Assembly (NCBI GenBank): GCA_947172415.1
Contig: OX359195.1
Coordinates: 1,488,001 to 1,552,000, forward strand
Source: Chondrosia reniformis
Lineage: Eukaryota > Porifera > Demospongiae > Chondrillida > Chondrillidae
Direction: 5' to 3'
Length of the DNA stretch: 64,000 nt
Shown here: positions 1-23,900 of the stretch, piece after piece
How positions within the stretch are numbered: position 1 is the stretch's first letter
Layout: each line of letters starts with the position of its first letter
The notes under the pieces: model-generated
What the model was told of the DNA's origin: nothing
What the model saw: the letters and a program-made list of their open reading frames with translations, nothing else
Databases searched by the model: none
Program-made: the position numbers and the translations under genes

Positions 1-547
1 ATTGATGTTTGACTGATTATACTTGTGGTTTGATTATCACTTTGATTATTCATGTACTGCCACAAGACCAAATCTTAGGTTTAATATATTACAATTAATG
101 TGTAGAAAGGAAATTGTATCTAACTCACTTGAAACTCACCTGCAGGCCAATGGTAGGGAGAAAGGCTATCCAAAATGAGCAAATGTCATGACTTCCTTTT
201 GAAAGAAACCCATGTAGTAATTTTGGGAGAAGACCAAAGGAATTTGTGTTGATCTGTAATAATATGCAGTCCCTTTTAACTTTAGTGGCTATTATTATGT
301 ATACATTAATTCTTCTGTATAGATTTCCTCTGCATAACAATGCACGTGCACTAATTGTAAGTTGCACATGCTATATATATGGGTGTTTCAGATTAGGTGA
401 GAGATCTACAGTAATTGTAAATGCATAATATTGTATTCACATGCATATATATTATTTTCATTTCATCATAATCAATTGCAATTATATATATACTTATAAG
501 TACAAAACAATTTCAGTAACATGCACATGTATACTATATCATTAGCA
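1..547. other. Spacer downstream of deaminase-like gene A; SINE edge and start of duplication unit 1
   Basis: The first ~50 bases match, in reverse orientation, the flank of the tRNA-like SINE near 41105-41165, so the window opens inside a repeat. From about position 51 the sequence is copied at 4990-5350, which marks the left side of the tandem segmental duplication. Short open frames here differ between the two copies by frameshifts, so I do not call a gene. Confidence 0.5.
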
Positions 548-1666
548 CTAATATATGTATCTAGATAAAGTAATAGCTTGTGTTGTGTTTACGATCCTTT
601 CAAATTTATCCATATTCCTACTTTCATACCAAAATGTCCAAGCTGGTTTGTAATTTTGAATGATCCTTTTACAAACAAAGCAAGGAGACAGATTGCATGC
701 AGAATAGATGGTAATATGCCCTTGTGGAATACCATTGTTATGTAAAGCTGGAAGTATGTCATATACCAAGTTATCTTCAGCACAGTATTGGTTTGATGTG
801 CTATAGTAACCTCTGTAAAGACTGTTACAATAACCAGATGTATTTACTACTTCCAGTATGGTATACTCAGAGTCAAAATGTCTTCCTGTTATTGTTGAAT
901 TCTTTGGGATACATCTTTGTATTCCTTGGAGACATTGGTCGGAAATACTGAATGGCCACGGTATAATGAGAAATGACACAAGGGCACATCTTCTTGTTTC
1001 CTTGCGGAAGTCATACTGGCTCCTGTTTGCTATGTAGAATTCCTTCAGACACCTCTTAAATCCTATATACGTACATCACCAGATCCATATATGTACATAT
1101 GAATTAGGTCAATATTCAATGTACATATGAATTAGGTCAAGATTCAATATATGTCCTCTTTACCTTTGGTTTTCCATGATTTGCTGTACACTATTGGAAG
1201 AGCTTCATTTCCTGTGAAGACACCAGTTCTCTGGACCACCCTACCGCTAGATCTCTCAACAGCTACATCTGTGGTGGGGATGTTTTATTGAGGCCACGAT
1301 AATTTAAAGACCTTGCTTAATGACCAGGGAATTAACACCATTTTCTATGAAACTTGGTTGACATCAGTATAAGTAAAAAATACTTAGAATAGACTGATAT
1401 AAATAATATAATGATATAATATAAAACAATAATAATAATAATATACAATAGCATATTATTATTATATTATTTATATCAGTCTATACAATAGCATAAATAT
1501 TTATGGAGAGAAATTTGCATGAAATCTAGCAGTCCATTCGGAGTGGGTACATGCATACGTACATACTTTCATGAGTAATGTCTTCTCTCCCGTAACTTAT
1601 AGAAGAAGCTAGCACTATAACCACAGCAAGTACAGAAAGTGCTAGTAGACCAACCAGCAGATCCAT
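548..1666 (-). CDS. Membrane-anchored/secreted deaminase-like protein, copy A
   Basis: Three exons read in one frame: 1666-1567, 1268-1164 and 1062-548, giving 239 residues. Phases agree (1, 1), and donors and acceptors are GT/AG. Residues 3-21 are a hydrophobic helix (signal peptide or signal anchor). Exon 3 carries CAE at about 162-164 and PCxxC at about 195-199, after a predicted beta strand reading ITIYSACN. The 30-residue gap between Glu and the PC motif is as in cytidine deaminases, where Cys/His-x-Glu plus PCxxC bind zinc and shuttle protons. I infer a zinc-dependent deaminase fold, possibly AID/APOBEC-like or toxin-type; substrate unknown. Copy B at 6302-8900 is a close paralogue. Both lie downstream of A1CF-like exons. 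The remainder of the protein is unrecognised. Zn ligands and Glu are intact here. Confidence 0.65.
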
Positions 1667-1898
1667 ACTGGTTAGAAAGTGGTTAAAATTTTCCCTTTAA
1701 TTCAATCTGCAACTTCTGAAGCTGACAATTCCGACTCTAGTATAGAAAAAGCCTACTCGTATATACGTGCAGTGTATCAGTTAGAGATATACGTACTATA
1801 CGCACATGAATCCATCAGGTTCAGATGGATATACCATGCGAATAAATTAACGACTGCAAAGAAGCAGCTGCATCACTTGAACTATATACATGCATGTA

Positions 1899-2662
1899 TC
1901 AGGGAGTACGGTAGTACTCCCTATGTAGGGATGACACGTTTTTTTCGTTTTCCCCATACATTGGTATAGGAGCGAAATCCCGAAATAGGCCGAAAATCGA
2001 CAAAACAAGGCTATGTATAGCTAAATATACAATATACATACTCTAAATAGACCTTAAAAGCAAGCGAATATGTCCCGCTGGCGAAATAATAAACTTTAAA
2101 AATTCCCATTTTCGTCTTCTTCATATTCTTCTTCTTCTTCTTCTTCTTATTCTTCGTCAGCCATAACTAAAAAACTATATAAGCTTTTGGACTAATTGTT
2201 ACACGAAACTACTGCAAATTTTCCGAGCTGTATTCTTTTGTAGAAGCGAGAGCGATAACGCTATTATTGAGCATGGCGGTTTTCATGACCCTAGAGTCAA
2301 GGCCTCAATAAAGTCGCCATTTTAATGACGTCATAATCAGTCGAAGATTGCGAAACCAAAATGATTTTAATTATACGAATCTAATTCCTAGCCCATGCTC
2401 CATAAAAAGTACAGAAACTAGAAATATTAAAAATTTTCTACAAAAATAGTGAAGATGTAGGGATGGTATAAAAAGTAGAGAAACAAGAAAGGGATGTTAC
2501 ACAGTGAAGCATTAGCTATACATGAATCCTACAAGCAAGGGTGTTGTATGATTCATGCACAGCTAATGCTTCACTGTGTAACATCCCTTTCTTGTTTCTC
2601 TACTTTTTATACCATCCCTACATCTTCACTATTTTTGTAGAAAATTTTTAATATTTCTAGTT
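1899..2662. mobile_element. Insertion of ~760 bp in unit 1, absent from unit 2
   Basis: Aligning the two duplication units, flank catgcatgta is followed directly by the ttacnttgatcag flank in unit 2 (about 9118-9130), while unit 1 has about 760 extra bases. The insert holds no long open frame and ends in a 100-bp-arm inverted repeat. This is best explained as a non-autonomous transposon or nested insertion that arrived after the duplication. Exact ends and target duplication were not fixed by eye. Confidence 0.55.
2418..2660. repeat. Near-perfect hairpin with ~100-bp arms
   Basis: Bases 2418-2517 are the reverse complement of 2561-2660, separated by a ~43-base loop. The arms begin with ctagaaatattaaaaatttt. 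Typical of a MITE or fold-back element. Confidence 0.85.
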
Positions 2663-3354
2663 GTTACTTTGATCAGTAATAAAAGTATATTTAGTATATA
2701 CGTAAGCGCAAGCGGTCGTCAACGTGATCAGTTGTTGTATTATATCTAGTTAACGATTAATTACCCGAATGATTCAGTAAATCCTTCAGCATGTACGTAA
2801 AGCGTTCAGCACTGGCCACCCTTCTATATGGACAAATAGAGATAGTTTGGGTTCTGCTTCTGGAAAATGTCCTTCAGGTATATAACTCAACCGATCTTAG
2901 CACATACAGTATATACGTATATAACACAAATACGAAGAAGTGACTAGACACAATATTCACTCACAGGAATTACACAAGAGAGCTGCATGCATACAAATAT
3001 CACACTTTCTTCCAAGTTAACTATTCTTCGTCTAGTATACAGTTAACGTACTATAAACGAAGTTTCCAAGAAATCTAGGGGAATTCCTGCAGGAAATAGG
3101 ATACCGTTCACGTGCACAGATTTCCCAATCAAAAACTATCAAGCAAGTGCTTACAGAGTTTATATAATAAAAGTTTGTAAAGAAACAAAAGGCTTGTTAG
3201 TTTGCAAATAACAAAACAGTTAATTTGTCAAATTAAAACACTAATACAGATTCATTGCAATTATTTATAATATATTATTTTAGTCATTTCCAGCATATTG
3301 TAGTCTTGAAATGGTTAGATTGTAAAGTCGTCCAGAGTTGTCAAGCGGCTCCTG

Positions 3355-4595
3355 TTATAAGCCAATGGCACTCCCCGGTCCCTTTGGGGTCCAGATGCCA
3401 GCACCGTTGATAGGATGATGGTAGGATCCACTTCCTGGTTGGTAGGTGGATTGGTAAAACGGAGGAACCGGAGCTGCACTGTCCCAGATCTTTGGAACTT
3501 TAGCAACTGATGCTGTTGAAACTTCAAACATAAAAATACAAGGAAGGCCTATAGTTACAACTCTGTTAATACTCTTATTCATATACAATTAAGAGGAGCT
3601 GGCAATTTTCCTATTTTGGCATATTATATATTATATTTGATGCAATGTAACTACTGAAATTTTTATACTATATACAATAGTCAGATAAAGTGAACAGTGA
3701 TGATAACCATATATAACTCATGATCACGGGTATACAATTTTTTATCCTAATCCAAAACTCCCTAAAGGCCTTATATATATGTAAGAATTTAAAATGGTGC
3801 TTTATAGATTACTCATAAATATGTACATAACGTACGATAGAATAAAAATTCATTGCTAGATTTGGTTTTATATACATAAAAATTAATCAGTTTTCTTTTC
3901 GTTAACAGAGTATGCATACAATATATAAATATGCATAATAGATGCATACATACGAGGAATTTGTGTGGATGGAATGTCCATTGCCATATATTGGAGCAAG
4001 ATGGAGGGAGGAAGGTAGGTTCTGTTCCTCCTAGCCTGCCTGTGCAGCAATAGAGTATCCTTGTCAATTGGCTTGGCCAATGTTATCTCTACTTCTGTGC
4101 CATCAATTTCCTCTTCTGTGTGAACATACATGATGCATGTGAACTAACATATGCAGATTTATATAGATACATTACCTATATATAATAAATACTAGGATGC
4201 ATTCTTTTAGGGCCACTAAAATATTGTGATCACTCTGTAGAGTCATCCTTCCATATACGTATTAGTAGCTAGCAAACAATAAACTACATATACGTAAGCT
4301 GCTTTCTCAAAAAGTTAAAGGGTATATGTAGGAGGGCAGAGTGGCAATTAGAAACCCTGATAGTATTTTTATATATATACACAGTACATGTCACTCTGTA
4401 TAATATAGTATGTGTATGTATGTAGTCATTACCATTCATCAACTCAATTGACTTTAAAGCACCTTCTCTTTCGCTGAAGTGAATAAAGGCGTAGTCTCTG
4501 ATCTTCTTCACTCTTTCCACTGGCGCTATCCCGGAAAAGATTTCTTCCAGATGACTTTCGGTTGTACTCAGCATCAAATTTCTCACATAGATCAC
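3355..4595 (-). pseudogene. Partial A1CF-like paralogue (RRM3 and C-terminal tail only)
   Basis: This is the unit-1 copy of the 3' end of the A1CF-like gene at 9808-14701. It retains the RRM3 exon (about 4594-4433), the next exon (4115-3954) and the terminal exon (3521-3355), which is almost identical to 9974-9808. It lacks RRM1/RRM2, the RG-rich exon, both dsRBD exons and the minisatellite. The acceptor of the RRM3 exon has shifted by one base (AAAG against AAGG). The middle exon is 46 bases shorter than its counterpart, and that difference makes its phase-1 end fit the phase-1 terminal exon, so a short in-frame RRM3+tail product is conceivable. No 5' start exon is visible. I regard it as a truncated duplicate, expression unknown. 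Confidence 0.7.
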
Positions 4596-5174
4596 TTTAA
4601 CCTATATTGTACAAAAGTACAGAGTAGAAACGGAAAATTAAATTAATTACATAAATTAATTAAAAAAATTAGATATCTATAACTGTTATGTGGAGAATTA
4701 AACATTAAATATTCCGACTATCAAAAAATTGGCAAATGTTTACACTCAATAAATAATATGTATATACATTGATATATAATGTGGAGTTTAATATATACTT
4801 AAAACCTACATTATACTAAATTTCAATTTTCGTTGTAGATAGCTCCAATAAACTTATCTATTATAATGAACGCAACTAAAATTACTCCCTATTAATGCAA
4901 TACATGTATATATATGTACGTAATATACGTATGTTCAGAAAAAATAGGTATATATGCTGAAGTACAGATCTGTTGTATATTAGACTTTGGTTACTCTTAC
5001 ATGTACTGCCACAAGACCAAATCTCAGGTTTCATATAATATTTTATAAATAATGTGTTAAAAGGAAGTAGCATCTAACTCACTTGAAACTCATCTGCAGG
5101 TCAATGGAGAAAGACTATCCAAAATGAGCTCTTGCAAATGAAGAAATTCAATGCTAGCCCTTTATATAGCTGCG

Positions 5175-5209
<35 letters not shown>

Positions 5210-6301
5210 TTTGTTCATCTTGATATGAAGCACTACAAATGTCATGACTTCCTTTTGAAAGAAACCCATCTAGCAGTAATTTTGGGAGAAGACCAAAGGA
5301 ATTTGTGTTGATCTGCAATCCTTTTTAACTTTAGTGGCTATTATTATATATACATACATTAATTCTTCCGTATAACTATAACTATAAGATTTCCTAGGCA
5401 TGGTATATAACCATGTATAACAATGCATGTGCATTACATGTACTAATTGTAAGTTGCACATGGTATGAGTATAGTGGACATATACGTACATGTATATATA
5501 CACAATATATATTACAGAAGAAGAAATAGACTTAGGTAATACAGACTCAGTATATGGACAGATACCAGGAAATATTGTACTGTAGAATTTCAAATAATAG
5601 GAAGCATTGTACTGTAGAATATCAAAAAACAGAAAGTAGGATATTAGAGAGATATATAGTTGTTTATGATCTAGCTACTTAGTTTTGGGGTAAGTCTCTT
5701 TAACATTTCTGAAGCTTGCCTGCTCATATGGCATACCATATAGTAGCCTTACATTGACACCTGACTGCCAGACACTGATTTACTAGATATAGTGTATTAC
5801 TATATAGTAAGTTGTGCTGCTATACATATATAATAGTGACTATATTAGTGTATACCAATGCCTATTGTACTGTAACTGCTTTATGCACATATATACTTTT
5901 AATATCATGTGATAGAGGTGTGATGCAATGTCATGTGGTGTATATATCAGGTTTACTGAAGAGCTGCTACATTTTTATGTCTGTCATTTTTGCTGCTAAT
6001 AGAATCATATTGACTATCCAATTTGCTATTGACAGCACTATTTATATAGTTTATTAGTCTATATGTCTATCAACCTTATTACAATGCTATTCTCAAAGGT
6101 TGTCAGCTGTATGGGTGTTTCAGCTTATATAGTCTCGCATAGCCCAGACTGCTATTTCGCCTTTATATTTACTTCATGATGTCACACGGTCAGTGAATTC
6201 GAAATATCAGATGAGGTGAGATACCTATAATGTAAATGTATACACAGGTATATAATAAGTTATACTGCATTTGATGAAGTATACATCTATATTATTTTCA
6301 T
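4596..6301. other. Spacer at the junction of the two duplication units
   Basis: No supported gene. 4596-4830 matches 13380-13610 (intron before the RRM3 exon in the intact gene). From about 4990 the sequence restarts with homology to position 51 onward, so the duplication breakpoint falls near 4830-4990. A (TA)n tract lies at 5180-5205. The remainder is AT-rich sequence without convincing exons. Confidence 0.5.
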
Positions 6302-8900
6302 TCAATTGCAATTATACATATAAGTACGTAACCATTTCAGTAATATGTATACGTCATTAAAAAAAGGAGATAAAGTAATCGCTTGTGTTGTGTCAAGGAT
6401 CCTTTTAAATTCATCCATATCCACGCTTTCATACCAAGGTATCCAAGTTAGTTTGTAGTTTTGAATGATCCCTTGACAAACAATGCAAGGAAACAAATTG
6501 CAGGCGGAAATGATGGTGATACGCCCTTGTGGAATACCACAGCTATGTAAAGCTGGAAGTATGTCATGTACCAAGTTATATTCAGCACAGTATTGGTTCG
6601 ATGTCCTATAGAAACCTCTGTAATTACTGTAATAATATCCAGATGTATTTACTACTTCCAGTATGGTACAATATGAGTCAAAATGTCTTCCTGTTATTGT
6701 TGAATTCATTGGGATACATCTTTGAATTCCTTGGAGACATTGGTCGGAAATACTGAATGGCCACGGTATAATGAGAAATGACACAAGGGCACATCTTCTT
6801 GTTTCCTTGCGGAAGTCATACTGGCTCCTGTTTGCTATGTAGAATTCCTTCAGACACATCTCAAATCCTACATCACAAGATCCATATACGTATGTATGTA
6901 TTAATTAGGTCAAGATTCAATATATGGCCTCTTTACCTTTGTGTTGCCATGATTTGCTATACACTTTTGGAAGAGCTTGGGTGAAGATACCAGCTGCAGT
7001 TCTCTGGACATCCCTACTGTTATATCTGCCAGTAGCTACATCTGTGATGGGGATGTTTTATGGAGGCAATAATAATTTAACAACCTTGCTTAATGAACAG
7101 GCATGAATAATGCATTAGCACCATTTTCTATGAAACTTGGCATAAGGCTAAGGTCAATTTACAGGGGGAAAATGCTTCATTAGTGGTATGAGTGATACAA
7201 AAATCATAAGCCTATAATACACACAGGGGAAAGTGTCCCTGGGCCACTTTTTAAGAGTGAAAAAAAGAAAAACATATATACCTGGCAAGGCAGTTATACA
7301 CAAGTCACAAGGGGATAGTTATAGTTTATGAGTATATTAGTAAGAACAGCATAATAGAATGGGTGACTGGACAGTAAGTACATGTAATCATGTTTAGTTT
7401 TGACACCAGGTTGGTGCTTCATGGGCCATGAATAGTTTTGGAGCGCTGCATAGATTGCAGATTTAGCAACTTCAGCAATGTATTCCTCGTGTCATGTTGT
7501 AGTGGAACTAGGAGCAAATTCTTTAAAACTGATGGATATATAGTGTCGGGATTGTGGTGGCCTAAGCTTCCAATTTCCATTGTTGTCAGAGAAAGGAATA
7601 ACCCAGTTTGTAGGAGATCTGTCATCATAGCTAGGTAGGTTTGTTTGATCGCTAAGAAGGACATGCATCCATAGCCTGTCAGGCACCTTAACCTGTGTGT
7701 TGTCAGGTCTGTTATATAATTAGCCTGTTTAAATTCTTTGTTCAGCTCCTTAACCTTGTCCTCAAAATGCAAAAAGCTGATACACTTCTATATATGTGTC
7801 TGAAGTGGTAGCCATAGGTATATGGATGAGAGTATTCTTCGAAGTCATTGTCATTGATAAATTCAAATCGATTTAATTTGATGGAATATTTCATTTAGAA
7901 TGTTGAAAGTTCAATTAATGCCCACATTTTAAACTAATTACTACCTAGCTTCTATACAGAGTGTAAACTGTTTATTGACTTGCCCTCAGGTCTGTGGTCA
8001 GTAGTAGCTTACACCCCAGAAGCTAGGTAGTAACTATAGCTATAGTACTTACAGCATCAGCTTTGAAGCTTTAAAACATTCATAACTAATTAAGCAGTGC
8101 GAGTATGATATGAAAATATATATTCATCTAGAATACTTCAGTATCCAAGCTATTTGAATCAGCAATGGCCATATGAGTGTTTTAACTTGTTACTCACATG
8201 TGCTTTGAAATACATTTTTAGGAGCTTGTGTGTTCTTCTCATATACATGTTCATCTGTATCAAATATATACATGCATATTTATGTATATATAATCTCTTG
8301 GAAATCTCCAAATTATGTATGTACATATGAACTAGGTTAAGATTCAATATATGGCCTCTTTACCTTTGTGTTGCCATGATTTGCTATACACTTTTGGAAG
8401 AGCTTCATTTCTGGTGAAGACATCAGTTCTCTGGACCACCCTACCACTAGATCTCTCAGCAGCTACATCTGTATTGGGGATGTTTTATTGAGGCCACAAA
8501 AATTTAAAGACCTTGCATCAGGCCATGAATAATGACTAATAACACCATTTTCTATGAAACTTGGTTGACATCAGTATAAGTAAAAAAATACGTAGAATAG
8601 ACTGAAATAAATAATATAATAATATAATATAAAATATAAAACTTAATGATTAGGCATGAATAATGCATTAACACCATTTTCTATGAAACTTGGTTGACAT
8701 CAGTATAAGGAAAATACTTAGAATAGACTGATATAATATTTATGGTGAGAGATATTTGCATGAAATTTAGCAGTCCATTTGAAGAATATATACATACCTT
8801 CATGAGTACTGTCTTCTCTCCCGTAACTTTTACAGCAAGCTAATACTACTATAACCACAGCAAGTACAGAAAGTGCTAGTAGACCCATCAGCAGATCCAT
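6302..8900 (-). CDS. Membrane-anchored/secreted deaminase-like protein, copy B
   Basis: Exons 8900-8798, 8468-8364 and 6867-6302 join in frame (phases 1, 1) to give 257 residues. The N-terminus (3-23) is a strong hydrophobic segment. The next exon is basic and Ser-rich. Exon 3 has CAE at 163-165 and PCxxC at 196-200, preceded by strand RITIISAC, the order expected for a zinc deaminase catalytic core (Cys and two Cys as zinc ligands, Glu as proton shuttle). Compared with copy A the upstream HFDSE becomes HFDSY, so that Glu is unlikely to be catalytic, while CAE and PCxxC are kept in both. A second version of exon 2 sits at 7041-6937 with the same phases. The gene follows the A1CF-like gene by about 0.9 kb on the same strand. 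Deaminase assignment is from motif and spacing only; substrate unknown. Confidence 0.66.
6937..7041 (-). other. Duplicate of exon 2 inside deaminase-like gene B
   Basis: This 105-base segment has an AG acceptor and a GGTAAAG donor, starts and ends in phase 1, is open in the coding frame, and aligns residue by residue with exon 2 at 8364-8468, ending in the same SKSWQHK. It could be an alternative, mutually exclusive, or additional exon (product 292 residues if both are included). It diverges more in its first half. Confidence 0.55.
7395..7775 (-). pseudogene. Decayed coding segment of unknown family inside the deaminase-B intron
   Basis: The minus strand reads like protein in stages: a charged segment from about 7768 (MHFEDKVKELNKEF), then after a frameshift near 7690 a segment rich in W/P/N (DRLWMHVLL, NWVIPFSDNNGNWKL, HYISISFKEFAP), then an in-frame TGA at about 7490, then HEEYIAEVAKSAIYAALQ continuing in the same frame. 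The composition is unlike intron DNA. I do not recognise the domain. One frameshift and one stop suggest a relic gene or a retrotransposed or transferred fragment. Confidence 0.45.
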
Positions 8901-9807
8901 ACTGGTTGGAGAGTGGTTAAAATTTTCCCTTTAATTTAACCGGCACCTTCTGAAGCTGACAATTCCGACTCTCTAGAGTATAAAAGGAGGCTACACGTAT
9001 ATTCACGCGAGGAGTCACTACGCACGTGGGTCCGTCAGGTTCAGATGGATATACCATGCGAATTAATCAACGACTGCAAAGAAGCAGCCATATCACTTGA
9101 ACTATATACATGCATGTATTATTACGTTGATCAGTAATAAAAGTATATTTAGTATATACGTAAGTGCAAGCGGTCGTCAACGTGATCAGTTGCTGTATTA
9201 TATCTAGTTAACGATCAATTACCCGAATGATTCACGATCAGTAAATCCTTCAGCACTGGTCACCCTTCTATATGGACAAATAGAGATATTTTGGTTTCTG
9301 ATTCTGGAAAATGTCCTTCAGCTAAATATATATACATAATTCAACTGACAGTCATCTTAGCAAGTACATAACACAAATAATAAAGTCAAGTGAGATTAAA
9401 AACACAATATTTACTCACAAGAATTACACAAGAGAGCTGCATGCATACAAATATCACTTTCTTCCAAGTTAAAAATTCTTCGTCTAGTATAGTTAACGTA
9501 CTATAAAACGAAGTTTCCAAGAAATCTAGGGGAATTCCAGGAAATAGGATAGGCTACCGTTCACGTGCACAGATTTCCCAATCAAAAACTATCAAGCAAG
9601 TGCTTACAGAGTTTATATAATAAAAGTTTGTAAAGAAACAAAAGGCTTGTTAGTTTGCAAATAACAAAACAGTTAATTTGTCAAATTAAAACACTAATAC
9701 AGATTCATTGCAATTATTCATAATATATTATTTTAGTCATTTCCAGCATATTGTAGTCTTGAAACGGTTAGATTGTAAAGTCGTCCAGAGTTGTCAAGCG
9801 GCTCCTG
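8901..9807. promoter_or_regulatory. Spacer between deaminase-like gene B and the A1CF-like gene
   Basis: No gene. This is the 5' flank of the deaminase copy B and also the 3' flank of the A1CF-like gene. It is strongly conserved with 1667-1895 plus 2665-3354 in unit 1, which means any promoter of the deaminase genes was duplicated with them. No clear TATA box was chosen. Confidence 0.4.
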
Positions 9808-12800
9808 TTATAAGCCAATGGCACTCCCCGGTCCCTTTGGGGTCCAGATGCCAGCACCGTTGATAGGATGATGGTAGGATCCACTTCCTGGTTGGTAGGT
9901 GGATTGGTAAAACGGAGGAACCGGAGCTGCACTGTCCCAGATCTTTGGAACTTTAGCAACTGATGCCGTTGAAACTTCAAACATAAAAATACAAGGAAGG
10001 CCTATAGTTACAACTCTGTTAATACTCTTATTCATATACAATTAAGAGGAGCTGGCAATTTTCCTATTTTGGCATATTATATATTATATTTGATGCAATG
10101 TAACTACTGAAATTTTTATACTATATACAATAGTCAGATAAAGTGAACAGTGATGATAACCATATATAACTCATGATGACGGGTATATAATTCTTTTATC
10201 CTAATCCAAAACTCCCTAAAGGCCTTATATATATGTAAGAATTTAAAATGGTGTTTTATAGATTACTCATAAATACGTACATAACGTACGATAGAATATA
10301 AATCCATTGCTACATTGTTACAATGATAAGCAGGATTGTGAGCTTTCCATAGCAGAACAAAACAATTAAGATTATTTACATAAGTGTCTCAAGACATTAT
10401 ATCCTCATCCAAAGCTACCTATAGGCCTTATACTGAAAGCTCACAATTCCGCTTACTATAAATACGTATATAATTTGAAACAGACACTCACCTCCTTCCA
10501 GTGGACATCCGATCTGTGACATCACATAAGAAGCTGCTGTTTGTTTGGCATCTTCAATGGTCCTACTCAACTTGTTTGACTGAAACTGAAGGTTCAAACC
10601 AGACACAACCACCTGAGGAAAGACTTGCACAGTTTAAGTACCCGTGTATAAATATTAAAATATGCTCTTTTCTAAGAGGTCATAATTAATTATACATTGA
10701 AGATATGGGGCAGCCATCTTTTTGGCTATCCCACCACAGAGTACGAAGGTATGTACTACTGTCATGAGTTTAATGTGCCTAATTCTGTGACATACTTTGT
10801 AGTAGTACAGTGGTCCTTCTCCTTGTGACGAACATGTGGCAGCAGTGTGCAGGGAATAAATGGGAATTCCCCAGTGGTTTTTGAGGCAAACTTCCTCCAA
10901 CAACTGAACAGGACTCCTGGTAACTTTGGAGGAGTGTCCATGAATATGAGAAGGAATACTCAGATGTGTACCTCCTCCCTCTTGAGATTGATATCCATAT
11001 TCCACATGGCCACACTATAGAAATTCATTCAAGTTCTGCCAATCAGTATGTAGGGATCACAGGAAATGCCACTCTAGAACCAATTGAGACACTCACCACC
11101 CTGGCACAGACACACTCACCACCCTGGCACGGACACTCACCACCTTGGCACAGACACTCACCACCCTGGCACAGACACACTCACCACCCTGGCACAGACA
11201 CACTCACCACCCTGGCACAGACACACTCACCACCCTGGCACAGACACACTCACCACCCTGGCACAGACACACTCACCACCATGGCACAGACACACTCACC
11301 ACCCTGGCACAGACACACTCACCACCCTGGCACAGACACACTCACCACCCTGGCACAGACACACTCACCACCCTGGCACAGACACACTCACCACCCTGGC
11401 ACAGACACTCACCACCCTGGCACAGACACACTCACCACCCTGGCACAGACACTCACCACCCTGGCACAGACACACTGGCACAGACACCTACCACCCTGGC
11501 ACAGACACATTCACCACCCTGGCACAGACACTCACCACCCTGGCACAGACACACTCACCACCCTGGCACAGACACCTACCACCCTGGCACAGACACATTC
11601 ACCACCCTGGCACAGACACACTCACCACCCTGGCACAGACACACTCACCACCCTGGCACAGACACACTCACCACCCTGGCACAGACACTCACCACCCTGG
11701 CACAGACACACTCACCACCCTGGCACAGACACTCACCACCCTGGCACAGACACCTACCACCCTGGCACAGACACATTCACCACCCTGGCACAGACACTCA
11801 CCACCCTGGCACAGACACACTCACCACCCTGGCACAGACACCTACCACCCTGGCACAGACACATTCACCACCCTGGCACAGACACTCACCACCCTGGCAC
11901 AGACACACTCACCACCTTGGCACAGACACACTCACCACCCTGGCACAGACACTCGCCACCCTGGCACAGACACCTACCACCCTGGCACAGACACCTACCA
12001 CCCTGGCACAGACACACTCACCACCCTGGCACAGACACTCGCCACCCTGGCACAGACACCTACCACCCTGGCACAGACACCTACCACCCTGGCACAGACA
12101 CTCGCCACCCTGGCACAGACACACCCACCCTGGCACAGACACTCACCACCTTGGCACAGACACTCGCCACCCTGGCACAGACACACCCACCCTGGCACAG
12201 AACACTCACCACCTTGGCACAGACACTCACCACCCTGGCACAGACACTTGCCTCGTATCTGGTCTGTCCTTGTCCATTTCCACATCCAGCTTGACGGCAA
12301 CCCGGAGAAGATATTACTGGAAAGAATGGTCTATTTGGGCGGACACGAGAGTAACTTCTTCCCCTACCACGCGATGGCATGAATCCTCGGGGTTCATTCC
12401 TAATTGAAGATAAATACATGTTTCAAATAACTTGTAATTATAGAAAAGAGATTTCAGCTATAAATGTTTCTTTAAGGAATACGGCAGAAGGTCAAATTGC
12501 CAAGCTAAAAACATTTAACTATAGGCTACCCCAAATTTCCCTTGGGATACTTTTAAAAGAAAAATTGATTTGATTTGGTTTTATATACATAAAAATTAAT
12601 CAGTTTTCCTTTCGTTAACAGAGTATGCATACAATATTTATATAAATATGCATAATAGATGCATACATACGAGGTATTTGTGTGGATGGAATGTCCATTG
12701 CCATATATTGGAGCAAGATGGAGGGAACTATAGTCGATGGGAAGGTAGGCAATGGGAGCCAGGGAGGAGTGGGGGAGGTAGGTTCTGTTCCTCCTAGCCT

Positions 12801-14701
12801 GCCTGTGCAGCAATAGAGTATCCTTGTCAACTGGCTTGGCCAATGTTATCTCTACTTCTGTGCCATCAATTTCCTTTTCTGTGTGAACATACATGATGCA
12901 GCAGCACGTGAACTAACATATGCAGATTTATATAGATACATTACCTATATATAATATATACTAGGATGCATGCATTCTTTTAGGGCCACTAAAAATATTG
13001 TGATCACTTTGTAGAGTCATCCTTCCATATACGTATTAGTAGCTAGCAAACAATAAACTACATATACGTAAGCTGCTTTCTCAAAAAGTTAAAGGGTATA
13101 TGTAGGGGGGCAGAGGGGCAATTAGAAACCCTGATAGTATTTATATATATATACATAGTACATGTCACTCTGTATAATATTATAGTATGTGTATGTATGT
13201 ATGTAGTTATTACCATTCATCAACTCAATTGACTTTAGAGCTCCTTCTCTTTCGCTGAAGTGAATAAAGGCATAGTCTCTGATCTTCTTCACTCTTTCCA
13301 CTGGCGCTATCCCGGAAAAGATTTCTTCCAGATGACTTTCGGTTGTACTCAACATCAAATTTCTCACATAGATCACCTTAACCTATATTGTACAAAAGTA
13401 CAGAGTAGAAACTGAAAATTAAATTATTAAATACATGCATTAATTAAAAATTTAGAAATCTATATCTCTTATATGGAGAATCAAACATATATTTGACTAT
13501 CAAGAAATGGGTAAATGTTTACAATCAATAAATAATATGTATATACATTGATATATATTATGGAGTTTAATATAATAATTAAAACCTATATTATGCTAAA
13601 TTTCTTATGCATATTGTCGTACTGCCTAGTCAACTGTATCTCCATGCATCCACCATTTTTAATTAATTACTAATTAAAGTTGATGGGTTCCACCTTTAGA
13701 TTAAAGAAGTGTATATACATTTAAATAGAATATTTGAATCTTACGGAAGACATCACTGAATCCTCCACTTCTATTTCCGGTTCCGCCCAGTCCACTGCTA
13801 CACTGTGCCCCCACATGTGGATACGCCCAGATATGAGCTTCTTGCGGGCCATCGCTGCAGACCTGTGAGAGTCGTATTCCACAAAGGCAAAGCCACGATT
13901 CTTAGATTTGTCACTTGCACTCGGGTAGACAATGACATCTCTCACACCCTCTGTGACTTTCTTGATCTCTTCCATGATGTCGCTTCGGACAACTCTCTTT
14001 GGAATTCCGCCGATGAAGAGCCTGCAGTTGTCAATGGACATACACACACCCAGCAGGCGGCCTTTCCTTATTTCATAGTTGTTGAACAGTTTGACAGACT
14101 TTTTTGAGTCTATCTGGTTGGTGTATACGACGAAAGCGTATCCGCGATTAAACCCGCTAAAATCCACCATCAGTCTCATTTCGTAGATCTTTCCTGCTCC
14201 TTCAAAGACTGGTACCAACTCATCCTCGAAGCAATCGCGAGGAATCTTACCCACAAATACTTCGCAACCGCGCTGCGGAGACGCACCGGACCAGTCCGGC
14301 GGAGGGCCGTAGCGCCGCTGTCCGTTTTGCTGGACAATTGGGTATCCCGTCCTCTGCATCAACCTTGTGATGGGGGGAACATCCTTCTCCTTTGCGGTAC
14401 CGTCTTCCTTTTGAGTGTGATATTCTAAATCTTCCACATCCTCCCTTTTCTCTTCTCTCTCCTCTTCCTCCTCTAGTTGGTAATTGGTTTCTTCGTGAAG
14501 AGTTTGCAATGTTGGCTCTTCGGCTTCCTTTGTATCAGCAGGCGAGAAGATGCCGCTGTCTGAACAAACATCAGTTTGGGCATTATTAATAGGCGATGAA
14601 GTGAAGCTCGGTTGTATGGAGAGGGTCGCTCCATCCTCCTCCTTGCTGCCTGCTTTGGAGCTGCTACTCGGAGACTTGGAAGGACTACTATCAGAATCCA
14701 T
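9808..14701 (-). CDS. A1CF/RBM46/RBM47-like RNA-binding protein
   Basis: Seven exons with consistent phases: 14701-13745, 13376-13214, 12878-12671, 12399-12252, 11014-10796, 10612-10492 and 9974-9808, for 660 residues. Residues 1-110 are acidic and disordered. The block with [16 protein letters not shown] and PRDCFEDEL starts RRM1 (about 146-222). RRM2 (226-307) has [10 protein letters not shown] and RGFAFVEY and ends [11 protein letters not shown]3 (320-395) has [20 protein letters not shown] and [10 protein letters not shown]. An RG-containing linker (443-492) precedes a DND1-type dsRBD (about 515-603; [13 protein letters not shown], then [12 protein letters not shown]). In vertebrates this family binds AU-rich RNA and A1CF/RBM47 assist APOBEC1 C-to-U editing. 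The fourth intron uses a GC donor. The A1CF, RBM46 and RBM47 lineages cannot be separated by eye. The start is the first Met after stops in frame. Confidence 0.9.
11085..12250. repeat. Minisatellite of 21-23-bp units in an A1CF-like intron
   Basis: About 50 copies of a unit containing caccaccctggcacagacac, alternating mainly between 21 and 23 bases, with small variants (ttggcac, cattcacc, ctcgcc). It fills nearly the whole 1.2-kb intron between the RG exon and the dsRBD exon and abuts the 5' splice site. It is open in several frames only because of its unit composition. Confidence 0.95.
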
Positions 14702-14934: not shown

Positions 14935-17900
14935 ATGAGCAAGGCTGCCAAAGCATTAAGACGGTGAGTTTGGTACCGTGAATGTGCCCAGTAGAGGTCT
15001 AGAATGTTCTATACACAGTCAGCATATCTCTAAAAAGACAATTTTTACACTTAACCTCAAAAAACCCTCGTCATATGGTTTTTAGATTTAACATTTAGCC
15101 ACAATCTCTCTCTTCTGTTGTTGAGACTAGTACGTTTCTATGACTACGCGAATCCAGTGAATGTTTCAATTTTGTGCTCATCCTATGGCCTATGCGATCT
15201 TAATCTATAGCTCAGTACAGTCATAGATCCATCTCTACCGAACGTTGCATCATTCTCCTAATATTTGATTGTTATCCCTTGAGTTTAATTTTTGGATAAC
15301 ACTGTTTTAGCTGTCAATTCTTAATATACACCAATTCACAACTGTATACTTGGAAAGTCCGTTCCTATGTGTTGATTGTTACGGTTCTGCCACGTCTCAA
15401 CTGTTTACCTTTGAAATGATTCTTTGTGTTCGCTTATATTCTTAGCAAATGACTCTTCAACAAGATCTATGACTGAGAGGGTTACTGGATTAAATGCTAG
15501 GATGATAATACTGATTAGCAAACTGTACATCATTCTCAGTCATAGATCTTGTTGAAGTATCAGCTATCATAAATGTCGAATGTGCATAGTGTATCTCTAG
15601 ATTAATTGGTCAATCAATTATTATTAATTTGGCTATTTCTTCTGTATAAACTGTCCATACTTGATGTAATCAAAATTGAAAATGGTTTTGCACTAATTTG
15701 ATTAGAAGGGAGCAGATACGTACGTCTTTGTATCACCTCCTGTTTGTTAGGAGTGGTGTTCGTATCAAGAGCCTTGCAGCAGGACACACTGCCTTAAATA
15801 TTGTAATATCAGACTTGAGTAGCTTGAGACAGAGAATGAAAGACTCCGTCAGTGCCCAGGAAGTTGGTAAGATTCCCAAACTGGAACAAGTGTTTATAAA
15901 TTTATATATACATACATATGTATAAATGTGTATAAATGTGTAGAGATTAATCTTCAGTTGAGCAATCAGCAACAAGAATTCAATTAATAGAGTAGAATTT
16001 TTGTTGCTGATTGCTCAACTGAAGATTAATCTCTACAATATAAACGCAACTGGAAATACTCCTTACCGCAGTATAAATGTGTATATATTTAAGTACATGT
16101 AATGTATTGCAGTTAAATTGCACTGCTCATGTGTGTGAAAGTGCTACATACATATAAGGAAACTCTTTAAAGATCTCTGTGTGGCTAGGTGTATTCATGA
16201 TTCAGAATCTGGAACTGCACTAGCCAAGGGATGGAGGGACAAGCGACATCTGTCCCAATCCCTTGGCTAGTGCAGTTCCAGATTCTGAAGTATAAGGAAA
16301 CTATTAATGTTTTTATGTAAATAGGATTTACCATGTATACATTGTAATGTTTTATTTATTTGCTGTTCAAAGACATTTTACAAATATCATATTCTAGTTG
16401 CTTATTAAATCACATATCTCCCAGCAGAATGCTTTATTTTGAGACACTTCCAATGTCATGACCTACAAAGCTACGTACGTATGTAGTATGTAGTGATTCC
16501 AGAGTGGTCTTTATGTATTAACAGTATTCAAGTATCTTATCCATCATAAAAAATATACTTATGTCTTAGTAATTAGGGTACCTTGTATTATGTTAGTAAT
16601 TTGTGTATTCATTGCCAGGTCAAAATAATTGTTTATTTAAAAATTGCTTTGGTAGTTTGCCTGTACTCCAGTATTGTTCCTACTGGCTCAATAGCAGTCT
16701 TTTAATGGAGTGCTAAGGTGATAGATACATAAGTGATTCTACCTTCTGAACAACAAGTAGTCGTAGTGATGGTCTTGTTAGACAGTGTAGTGACAGTCTT
16801 GTTAGACAGTGTAGTGACAGTCTTGCTAGACAGTGTAGTGACAGTCTTGCTAGACAGTGTGATGGTCTCGTTAGTCAGTGTGGTGATGGTCTTGCTAGAC
16901 AGTGTGGTGATGGTCTTGCTAGACAGTGTAGTGACGGTCTTGTTAGACAGTGTAGTGACGGTCTTGTTAGACAGTGTAGTGATGGTCTTGCTAGACATTG
17001 TAGTGGTCTTGTTAGACAGTGTAGTGATGGTCTTGCTAGACAGTGTAGTGATGGTCTTGCTAGACAGTGTAGTGACAGTCTTGCTAGACAGTGTAGTGAT
17101 GGTCTTGTTAGACAGTGTAGTGATGGTCTTGCTAGACAGTGTAGTGATGGTCTTGTTAGACAGTGTAGTGGTCTTGTTAGACAGTGTAGTGGTCTTGTTA
17201 GACAGTGTAGTGATGGTCTTGTTAGACAGTGTAGTGGTCTTGTTAGACAGTGTAGTGATGGTCTTGCTAGACAGTGTAGTAAACCATTCCTTTGAGGACT
17301 TGTGAATTTAGATGGTGTAAATTAGATGCTACACATGACAACCAAAACAAACTTTATCACTTTATACTTGATCCTTTAGTCAAGTAATCACTACCTGTCC
17401 CTTATATGTTTACTCCTTCTTGTCTTCTTCTACAATATTCATTTCAGGAGACCAGCTGTCCAAATGATATTCATAGTCTTGTAGTACATCTTAAGTCTCT
17501 TATATCAAGATTATCTATTCTGCTATATACATATGCTTGACATAGACATGATTGTACCAATGCTCCCTTTAACATAAGTTGTTTGTGCTTTTATTTTACA
17601 TTTATATTCAACTTCCAATGTATTGTTTCCTAATACGTATGTAGCTTTTCCTAAAACTAGAGCTGAGAGTAGAAGTAAGGAGTGTTTCAACAATAGCTGG
17701 AATTTTGGCAATTTTTTAACCTGTAAATGTACATTAGTGGATATCCTGTAGGTACATGTTTAGGCAGAACTTGTGTCACATTTGTTGTTCTTTGCGTCTC
17801 TTTATAGCACTAGAGAGTGTTGACAAATGGGCTCAGGCAGACGAGCTACCAGCTCTGCAGGTTTGTATAAAGTGTTTGCTGTCACATGATGTCACATGAT

Positions 17901-20900: not shown

Positions 20901-23900
20901 CCTCTTTCCTGCCTACTATTGTACTCCCCAGTCTGGTAAGATTTGATTATCTTGGTCTTTGTAGTGTGTTATTGTGTGGTAGCGCTATTAGGCCCTGGTG
21001 TTTTATATTTATTGTTCAACAGTTGACCAATTAAGCATACATGTGAAGAACATGTGTAACTCATACTTTATAGTAAAAAGTTGAAAACAAAGATCAATTG
21101 ACCACTAGTCTCCTTCACTTTGCTGTCTGAGTCAAATTATTAGTTCGTGCAAGTACATTAAAGGGTCCTCACTATTTGAGCACCTAGAACTTGCTAAATA
21201 GACTACGAAGTGAAGTGTGGGCCCCAACACTAGAATGTGTACTAAAACACTAGTATGTGAACTACGTATATCACTTGAGTGTATATTCGTATGTATTGGG
21301 TTTCTGAGATATATTTGTACATTTATCTTAATCTAGTCTCAATGGGAAGATAAGGAGAAGAAACTTCAGAAAGAATTATCAAAAAATCCAAAAGTACGCA
21401 TCATTGTAAACTATATTAGAACTCTAATTACGTAATCTATAGAGTCTCCAAATACCACCAAAGTGGAAGCTGATAGTTGATCCAGTATGGATACTGATAT
21501 CTTATAAGTGTAGCAGCTGATATTATGACATGCATATTGTAGAAACTTTCATTGTAGTATTGTTCTGCAGCAATGTTTTGCACTCAAGAGTAAGTATTTA
21601 TCTTTGAGATGGTTCATCTTTTAGTCTTTTGAGCTTATGGAGACACTCAAAAGACTAAAGATAACCCATCTTTAAGATAAATTTGGTGCATTTAGAAGAA
21701 GGCTCTATCATGTAAAATATATGTACACACGTACATATGTACATTCCAACACCTGCCTAAATAACTAGTGTTTCTGATGGTTGTTATAAACTGTAAGATA
21801 TTTTTCATTGATAAATTATGTGATCACTACTTCAATACATCACTTTTTAGTTTGGGGAAACCCCTTAATCAATGAAATATACTGGATATACTATATATTA
21901 CACTTTATATTGTGCTTGTACGTATGTACATACCTATATGTGAATATCAGACACTTTGTATGTATTGACTATCTAACATACTGTCAGATATACACATTAA
22001 TATTAATGAGTAGGAATTTAAATAGAATAATTGTGTTTATATACATAGGTATTATGCAATGTACGTACCCATGTATTGTATCCAATTGTAGGATATAGCT
22101 GAGGTTCAGCAGAAACTGGAACATGCTACCAATCAGAAGGAATTCTGTGTGGTAGATGGTAAGGTCTGATCTAACCAAACTTGCGTTATATGTACAGTGA
22201 GTAGTTCAAGATGCCCAAATTTCTGTGTTTTGAAATGTTTCTGATGCTCAAATGTATATCATATAAATGCAACAAATATCCCTTACTATTTCATTTAAGT
22301 ATCTCTACAGAAATGTAAGCTAATGCTGTAAGTTTTCTGAGTGTAACAACAAAGTGTTGATTTTGACTCTAATTCTGATTTACGTACTTCTACTCAGTGA
22401 GATGTTTAGAATATGAGTTGAAAGTGGTCAAGATGATGTCCGTCAAGGCTGGCTTGTTAGATTTGTCACAGACAATGACAGCAGTTGGTGAACGTATGGC
22501 TTTCATTGGCAAAGCGCAACATGTACGTATATAGACACACCCTCACACCCTCACAACATGTACGTATATAGACACACCCTCACACCCTCACAACATGTAC
22601 GTATATAGACACCTTTAAAACATGTGTATACATAAATTTAGTAGTAGTAAATCACTCGGTTTCACTGCTAACTCAGCTGCAGTCGCTGTCTGTCTGTGTG
22701 TGATATCTGGAAGCCCGCCCATCACTGACACCTCTGGTCAGGATTATCTATTAACTATATACCCAATCAATTAGTAGAACTGCAGTGTCTAGCTCTGTGT
22801 TATATGTACCCTCCCATCTCTAGTTCTGTGTTATATGTACCCTCCCATCTCTAGCTCTGTGTTATATGTACCCTCCCATCTCTAGCTCTGTGTTATATGT
22901 ACCCTCCCATCTCTAGCTCTGTGTTATATGTACCCTCCCATCTCTAGCTCTGTGTTATATGTACCCTCCCATCTCTAGCTCTGTGTTATATGTACCCTCC
23001 CATCTCCAGCTCTGTGTTATATGTACCCTCCCATCTCCAGCTCTGTGTTATATGTACCCTCCCATCTCTAGCTCTGTGTTATATGTACCCTCCCATCTCT
23101 AGCTCTGTGTTATATGTACCCTCCCATCTCTAGCTCTGTGTTATATGTACCCTCCCATCTCTAGCTCTGTGTTATATGTACCCTCCCATCTCCAGCTCTG
23201 TGTTATATGTACCCTCCCATCTCTAGCTCTGTGTTATATGTACCCTCCCATCTCTAGCTCTGTGTTATATGTACCCTCCCATCTCTAGCTCTGTGTTATA
23301 TGTACCCTCCCATCTCTAGCTCTGTGTTATATGTACCCTCCCATCTCTAGCTCTTTTATAAATAGCTACCCATTGATAAATCCAAAGTTTGGAGGTAAAT
23401 CCTTTTCAGTCCAGTGGCTTTTTGAAAGTCTTTATGATGCAACCATCAACTTGTAGTACATTGCATAACACCCGGTTAACAAGTGTAAAAGTGTTAATTA
23501 CTTTGGGAACCAGATGACCTCTGACCTCTGTAGATATCTAATTTTAATCCAATTTCACTATAACCTTGATGAGTGTGATTCAGTGGCAGAATAATTCAAG
23601 TTTAATTGTAATGAGCACATTAATATTTATCTAATTTCTGAGTATTTTTTAAGAGTACAATACTTTAGGTCTAGTTTATATAGTTGAGCTGTCTTTTATT
23701 AAAATGTGTGTATATATCATTGCGAACTAAAGGAATCATTAACTACTACTGTGAGCAATAGCTGATATTCCTATATCATTCTTGTGCTAGGATTTGGCAG
23801 CTCTAATACCTGAAACATCAGAAAGGAGTGAAACATTACCTACATATACAGGTATCTTGTTACCTAACAATGTATTAATATAAATTATATGCAGGAATGC

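Follow-up and report, generated by a model that had tools for sequence, protein, structure and literature searches.

Two divergent CAE-type deaminase-like genes beside one intact A1CF-type gene in the sponge Chondrosia reniformis

In mammals, A1CF and RBM47 are cofactors of the deaminase APOBEC1. A1CF itself is dispensable according to the available text of PMC5340909, in which the efficiency of C-to-U editing is unchanged in A1cf-null mice. The SNADs, secreted novel AID/APOBEC-like deaminases, are described as carrying a signal peptide or a predicted secretion sequence, and one of them, SNAD4, is known from sponges (available portions of PMC11004436 and PMC8201067). Replacement of the HxE part of the active-site motif by CxE is described in the available portion of PMC3482391 for deaminase toxins of Wolbachia that belong to the Helix-4 division. 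No description of linkage between a deaminase gene and an A1CF-type gene was found in the literature searched, which covered titles and abstract openings, and the words deaminase, APOBEC and cytidine are all absent from a paper on sponge immunity (PMC8242945).

We analyzed a 64,000-nucleotide stretch of the C. reniformis genome (contig OX359195.1, positions 1,488,001 to 1,552,000), hereafter the window. An A1CF/RBM46-type gene starts at position 14701 and is followed downstream, on the same minus strand, by a deaminase-like gene, termed D2, which lies about 0.9 kb from the A1CF-type stop. A second deaminase-like gene, D1, is located in the distal copy of a segmental tandem duplication (Table 1). 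This arrangement, in which a complete A1CF-type gene precedes, on one strand, a gene whose product contains CAE-x30-PCxxC, had been proposed in the initial annotation and is confirmed by the gene models, the profile searches and the motif.

Table 1. Coordinates of the genes, duplicated segments and repeats at the locus
Feature	Position	Strand	Remarks
A1CF-type exon 1	13745..14701	-	start codon, RRM1, RRM2; outside duplicated block
A1CF-type exon 2	13214..13382	-	RRM3
A1CF-type exon 3	12671..12878	-	gene model
A1CF-type exon 4	12296..12399	-	arginine/glycine-rich; 3' end provisional because it runs into the adjoining intronic minisatellite
A1CF-type exon 5	10796..10916	-	dsRBD, first half
A1CF-type exon 6	10492..10612	-	dsRBD, second half
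A1CF-type last exon	9808..9974	-	gene model
D2 exon 1	8798..8900	-	start codon; hydrophobic stretch, either signal peptide or anchor; GT donor
D2 exon 2a	8364..8468	-	phase 1-1; AG/GT borders; 95/105 bases identical to D1 exon 2
Dispersed repeat	7160..8300		between D2 exons 2a and 2b; 35 genome matches including its own place
D2 exon 2b	6937..7041	-	diverged second version of exon 2, same border type; 82/105 bases identical to 2a
D2 exon 3	6302..6867	-	deaminase-like domain; CAE 6589-6581, PCxxC 6490-6476
Proximal copy of duplication	4984..13604		right edge inside A1CF-type intron 1
Distal copy of duplication	39..4824
A1CF-type piece, exon 2 copy	4433..4601	-	in duplicate
A1CF-type piece, exon 3 copy	3954..4115	-	in duplicate; out of frame, with 46 bp fewer than the intact exon
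A1CF-type piece, last-exon copy	3355..3521	-	in duplicate
761-bp repeat	1900..2660		upstream of D1; absent from other copy
D1 exon 1	1567..1666	-	start codon and hydrophobic segment
D1 exon 2	1164..1268	-	gene model
D1 exon 3	548..1062	-	deaminase-like domain; CAE 784-776, PCxxC 685-671

The model of the neighboring gene matched the hnRNP R/Q family profile TIGR01648 with 526 bits (cut-off 317.85) and the DND1-type double-stranded RNA-binding profile DND1_DSRM with 48.5 bits (cut-off 25.7), and three RRM stretches were located by profile search. It thus has the RRMs and the C-terminal DND1-type dsRBD that characterize the A1CF/RBM46/DND1-type proteins. The best matches among PDB sequences were hnRNP Q (6kor, two RRMs) and DND1 (7q4l), with RRM3 matching best to 2cpd, annotated as APOBEC-1 stimulating protein. 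In a search of the C. reniformis genome alone (117,379,552 bases, 15 contigs) at E-values up to 0.001, eight matches fell at the gene's own locus and one weak match fell on C6 (E 4.4e-5, 31% identity), so that no second member of the family was seen. Compared with A1CF, RBM46, RBM47, DND1 and hnRNP R/Q, this is an ordinary animal gene, unusual only in its broken copy and its intronic minisatellite. The minisatellite (11041-12260) consists of 21-23-bp units with repeated donor-like sites and lies beside exon 4; the window also holds tandem arrays at 16718-17236 (21-24-bp units, at least 16 copies) and at 22633-23500 (31-bp units, at least 20 register copies).

The D1 and D2 genes were modeled from splice borders rather than from transcripts, each with three exons and with introns that are all GT-AG and in phase 1; the predicted products have 239 residues for D1, the C-terminus of which is the shorter, and 257 residues for D2. 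Between its exons 1 and 3, D2 contains both exon 2a and exon 2b, which are 78% identical and both in phase 1-1; judged from these borders, they could be alternative exons, and either alternative or tandem use would preserve the frame. Of the matches to the dispersed repeat between them, the other 34 are partial (68-92% identity). All seven genome matches to the D2 query, at E-values up to 1, fall within the D1 and D2 genes.

To place D1 and D2 among the deaminases, we combined motif and profile searches. Both proteins carry the motif of the zinc-dependent deaminase superfamily ([HC]xE and PCxxC at suitable spacing), with CAE and PCxxC exactly 30 residues apart. A looser pattern, [CH]AE-x20-45-PCx2-4C, occurred twice in the open frames of the six-frame translated window, once in D1 and once in D2; none of 300 triplet shuffles of the window contained it. 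The motif residues are kept, while the exon 3 proteins of D1 and D2 are 80% identical. The AID/APOBEC motif HxE-xn-PCxxC, as defined in the available text of PMC8201067, is absent from both proteins, in which the first part of the motif is CAE.

Four Pfam deaminase families matched around the zinc site of D1 or D2, every one of them below its cut-off. The best was PF14424 (Toxin-deaminase, the BURPS668_1122 family), which reached 18.1 bits over 45 residues of D1 exon 3 against a cut-off of 29.6 (E 0.0031 for the whole exon, 0.083 for the core, 0.0064 for the full protein) and gave no match to D2. PF00383 (dCMP_cyt_deam_1) matched D2 (E 0.18 for exon 3, 0.10 for the core), and the D1 core matched NAD1 (E 0.069, 13.7 bits) and SNAD4 (PF18750; E 0.09, 13.3 bits), for both of which the cut-off is 27. 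These were the only AID/APOBEC profiles listed, on the D1 core only; none of the AID/APOBEC profiles, SNAD and NAD included, reached its cut-off on either protein. No Pfam profile at all did so at the curated cut-offs, no NCBIfam profile matched, and the top Pfam match of the D2 core was Bfc, a non-deaminase (E 0.078). Against 177,635 PDB sequences, at E-values up to 10, a profile built from both cores (A2) had a sole match, the cytidine deaminase 1r5t (E 0.43), in which the CAE and PCxVC motifs align in register, whereas D1 alone matched only an unrelated membrane-protein subunit of NADH-quinone reductase (E 0.53 and 0.58). As a control, ten shuffled cores were searched. None matched a deaminase family, but two matched other cysteine-rich families (E 0.009 and 0.017) better than the cores match deaminases; therefore, only the agreement among deaminase families on one site counts, and not any single E-value. 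The proposal that D1 and D2 are deaminase-like is thus supported by the motif and by sub-threshold profiles at the zinc site, as far as sequence can tell, but no family cut-off was passed.

In comparison with the described families, D1 and D2 resemble SNAD4 in their sponge origin, their N-terminal hydrophobic segment and the weak match of the D1 core, and differ from it in the low score and in having CAE, where HxE is described in the available text of PMC8201067 for the AID/APOBEC family generally, not for SNAD4 itself. Toxin-deaminase is the best profile match of a whole exon-3 domain, at the zinc site of D1, but the match is short and absent from D2. The enzyme 1r5t shares the register of the zinc ligand motifs at a poor E-value, and D1 and D2 differ from it in their N-terminal hydrophobic segment and longer N-terminal region.

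AlphaFold, supplied with a two-sequence alignment, gave low-confidence models of D2 (pLDDT 57.2, pTM 0.58) and D1 (pLDDT 43.2, pTM 0.47), and no deaminase was among the Foldseek and VIA matches listed for them. In the low-confidence D1 model, CAE opens a helix (residues 94-108) and PCxxC opens another (129-134), with a strand in between; in that of D2, PCxxC sits in a strand. With both models of such low confidence, the deaminase fold is putative and inferred from weak sequence matches.

The N-terminal segment of both proteins (residues 3-21) is strongly hydrophobic, with a Kyte-Doolittle mean of 3.06 in D2 and 2.92 in D1. A second, weaker hydrophobic window (mean 1.93) begins at residue 186 in the D2 core. 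Three sequons are common to the two proteins, which contain 13 (D2) and 9 (D1) cysteines. The segment suggests that D1 and D2 enter the secretory route, with a signal peptide or an anchor alike possible, and it argues against contact with an RNA-binding cofactor located in the nucleus or cytoplasm. The initial annotation had likewise taken a membrane anchor on the deaminase to speak against a simple nuclear partnership. Comparison of exon 3 between D1 and D2 gave a dN of 0.097 and a dS of 0.129 (ratio 0.75). Over residues 65-166 the ratio was 0.84, and 33 of the 43 changes were nonsynonymous, compared to a mean of 31.6 under neutral simulation, in which 867 of 5000 simulated sequences stayed free of stops. 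Given this neutral-like ratio and the share of stop-free simulations, the constraint on D1 and D2 is weak.

The initial annotation had further described a block duplicated with deaminase and A1CF-type exons together. The duplication is real, with seven aligned pieces joining the two copies, but the A1CF-type gene is copied only in part and the copy looks broken. Since the edge of the duplication lies in intron 1, exon 1 was left uncopied; the distal piece retains exons 2, 3 and the last exon, without the start codon and RRM1-2. Alignment of the two copies showed no distal counterpart of 10316-12554, which spans exons 4-6 and includes the dsRBD exons. The 46-bp difference in the length of exon 3 is no multiple of three. 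The last exon differs between the copies at 1 of 168 bases, and in the RRM3 exon a comparison over 51 codons gave four synonymous and zero nonsynonymous differences. Because the distal A1CF-type copy lacks the start exon, RRM1-2 and the dsRBD, and its exon 3 is out of frame, the A1CF-type gene is intact only once, beside two deaminase-like genes, and there is no duplicated pair.

Within the duplicated block, the two copies are more similar near A1CF than near the deaminase gene, non-coding stretches included. Per 100 aligned bases, they are identical at 83-99% in 3838-4824, 75-100% in 2661-3862, 65-92.5% in 1119-1899 and 77-98% in 476-1326; the 32-51% obtained in 39-475 is an artefact of a global alignment forced over unequal lengths, local pieces there being 81% and 85% identical. 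Gene conversion may have preserved the similarity near A1CF, or the deaminase side may evolve faster. The 761-bp repeat has at one end a 119-nt inverted repeat (2416-2534 and 2544-2662, 97% complementary), and with 40 of the 1135 first-look candidates scored it has at least 42 near-full-length places in the genome, its own included, at 97-100% identity. Its appearance is that of a MITE-like element that has multiplied recently.

These observations bear on how the two kinds of genes are related. A linked editing pair, in which the deaminase and the A1CF-type protein act jointly on RNA and are kept and duplicated as a unit, would be in line with their proximity on one strand, with the duplicated block, with the cofactor role of mammalian A1CF and RBM47, and with the silent changes in the RRM3 copy and the single base difference in the last-exon copy. 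However, this idea loses its main support, as only one A1CF-type gene is intact and the other copy, 5'-truncated, internally deleted and shifted in frame, is a passenger piece that forms no second pair. The hydrophobic N-termini of D1 and D2, the sub-threshold AID/APOBEC scores and the unchanged editing efficiency in A1cf-null mice also stand against it. The data thus give no support to the suggestion that the linked genes form an early editing or immune pair, and we regard joint action as highly improbable. Equally improbable is an ancient functional neighborhood, in which the A1CF family would have partnered a membrane-linked CAE-type deaminase of an unrelated clade before APOBEC1 arose. The other option raised initially, chance linkage, is favored: the pairing is most likely an ordinary neighborhood copied along by accident.

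The properties of D1 and D2 themselves allow further readings. It is unlikely that neither is an active deaminase, each being a pseudo-enzyme or a different cysteine-rich or zinc fold whose motif merely resembles that of deaminases, and which may already be in decay. The missed cut-offs, the comparable E-values of shuffled cores with other cysteine-rich families, the poor models whose listed fold matches include no deaminase, the near-neutral substitution pattern and the shortened D1 C-terminus would all fit such proteins, whereas the convergence of four deaminase families and a PDB cytidine deaminase on one site, the absence of deaminase matches among shuffled cores, and the retention of the motif residues in both diverged copies speak for a deaminase. 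Less likely still is a membrane-anchored deaminase that faces the cytosol and acts from the membrane surface against viruses or mobile elements; its hydrophobic stretch (19 residues, mean hydropathy about 3) is as long as in a signal anchor, but the shared sequons and many cysteines fit a lumenal domain better, if weakly.

We consider it probable, on the whole, that D1 and D2 are paralogous secretory deaminase-fold proteins next to an independent A1CF-type gene, with the partial A1CF copy as a passenger. Most likely, they are divergent, SNAD-like in kind, assignable to no known family at threshold, and near A1CF by chance. According to this explanation, D1 and D2 would be paralogues that change quickly and have a zinc-dependent deaminase fold; their N-terminal segment would direct them into the secretory route, and they are predicted to be secreted or membrane-tethered. 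The analogy with the SNADs suggests that their probable substrates are cytosine-type bases, in nucleosides or in nucleic acids, deaminated either within the lumen or extracellularly, and perhaps of microbial origin. The A1CF/RBM46-type neighbor would act as an independent mRNA-binding regulator. The tandem duplication, with its edge in intron 1, would have copied the deaminase gene whole and the A1CF-type gene in part, leaving the distal piece as a presumably decaying passenger.

The A1CF linkage would matter only if it is present in other sponges. The remaining interest lies in the sponge's CAE-type deaminase-like family, which is divergent and probably secretory. Should D1 and D2 indeed be deaminases, this would be an animal deaminase lineage with CAE replacing HAE, routed to the secretory pathway and unrecognized at threshold by the profile libraries used, and it would add to the case for repeated uptake or re-use of toxin-like deaminases by animals.
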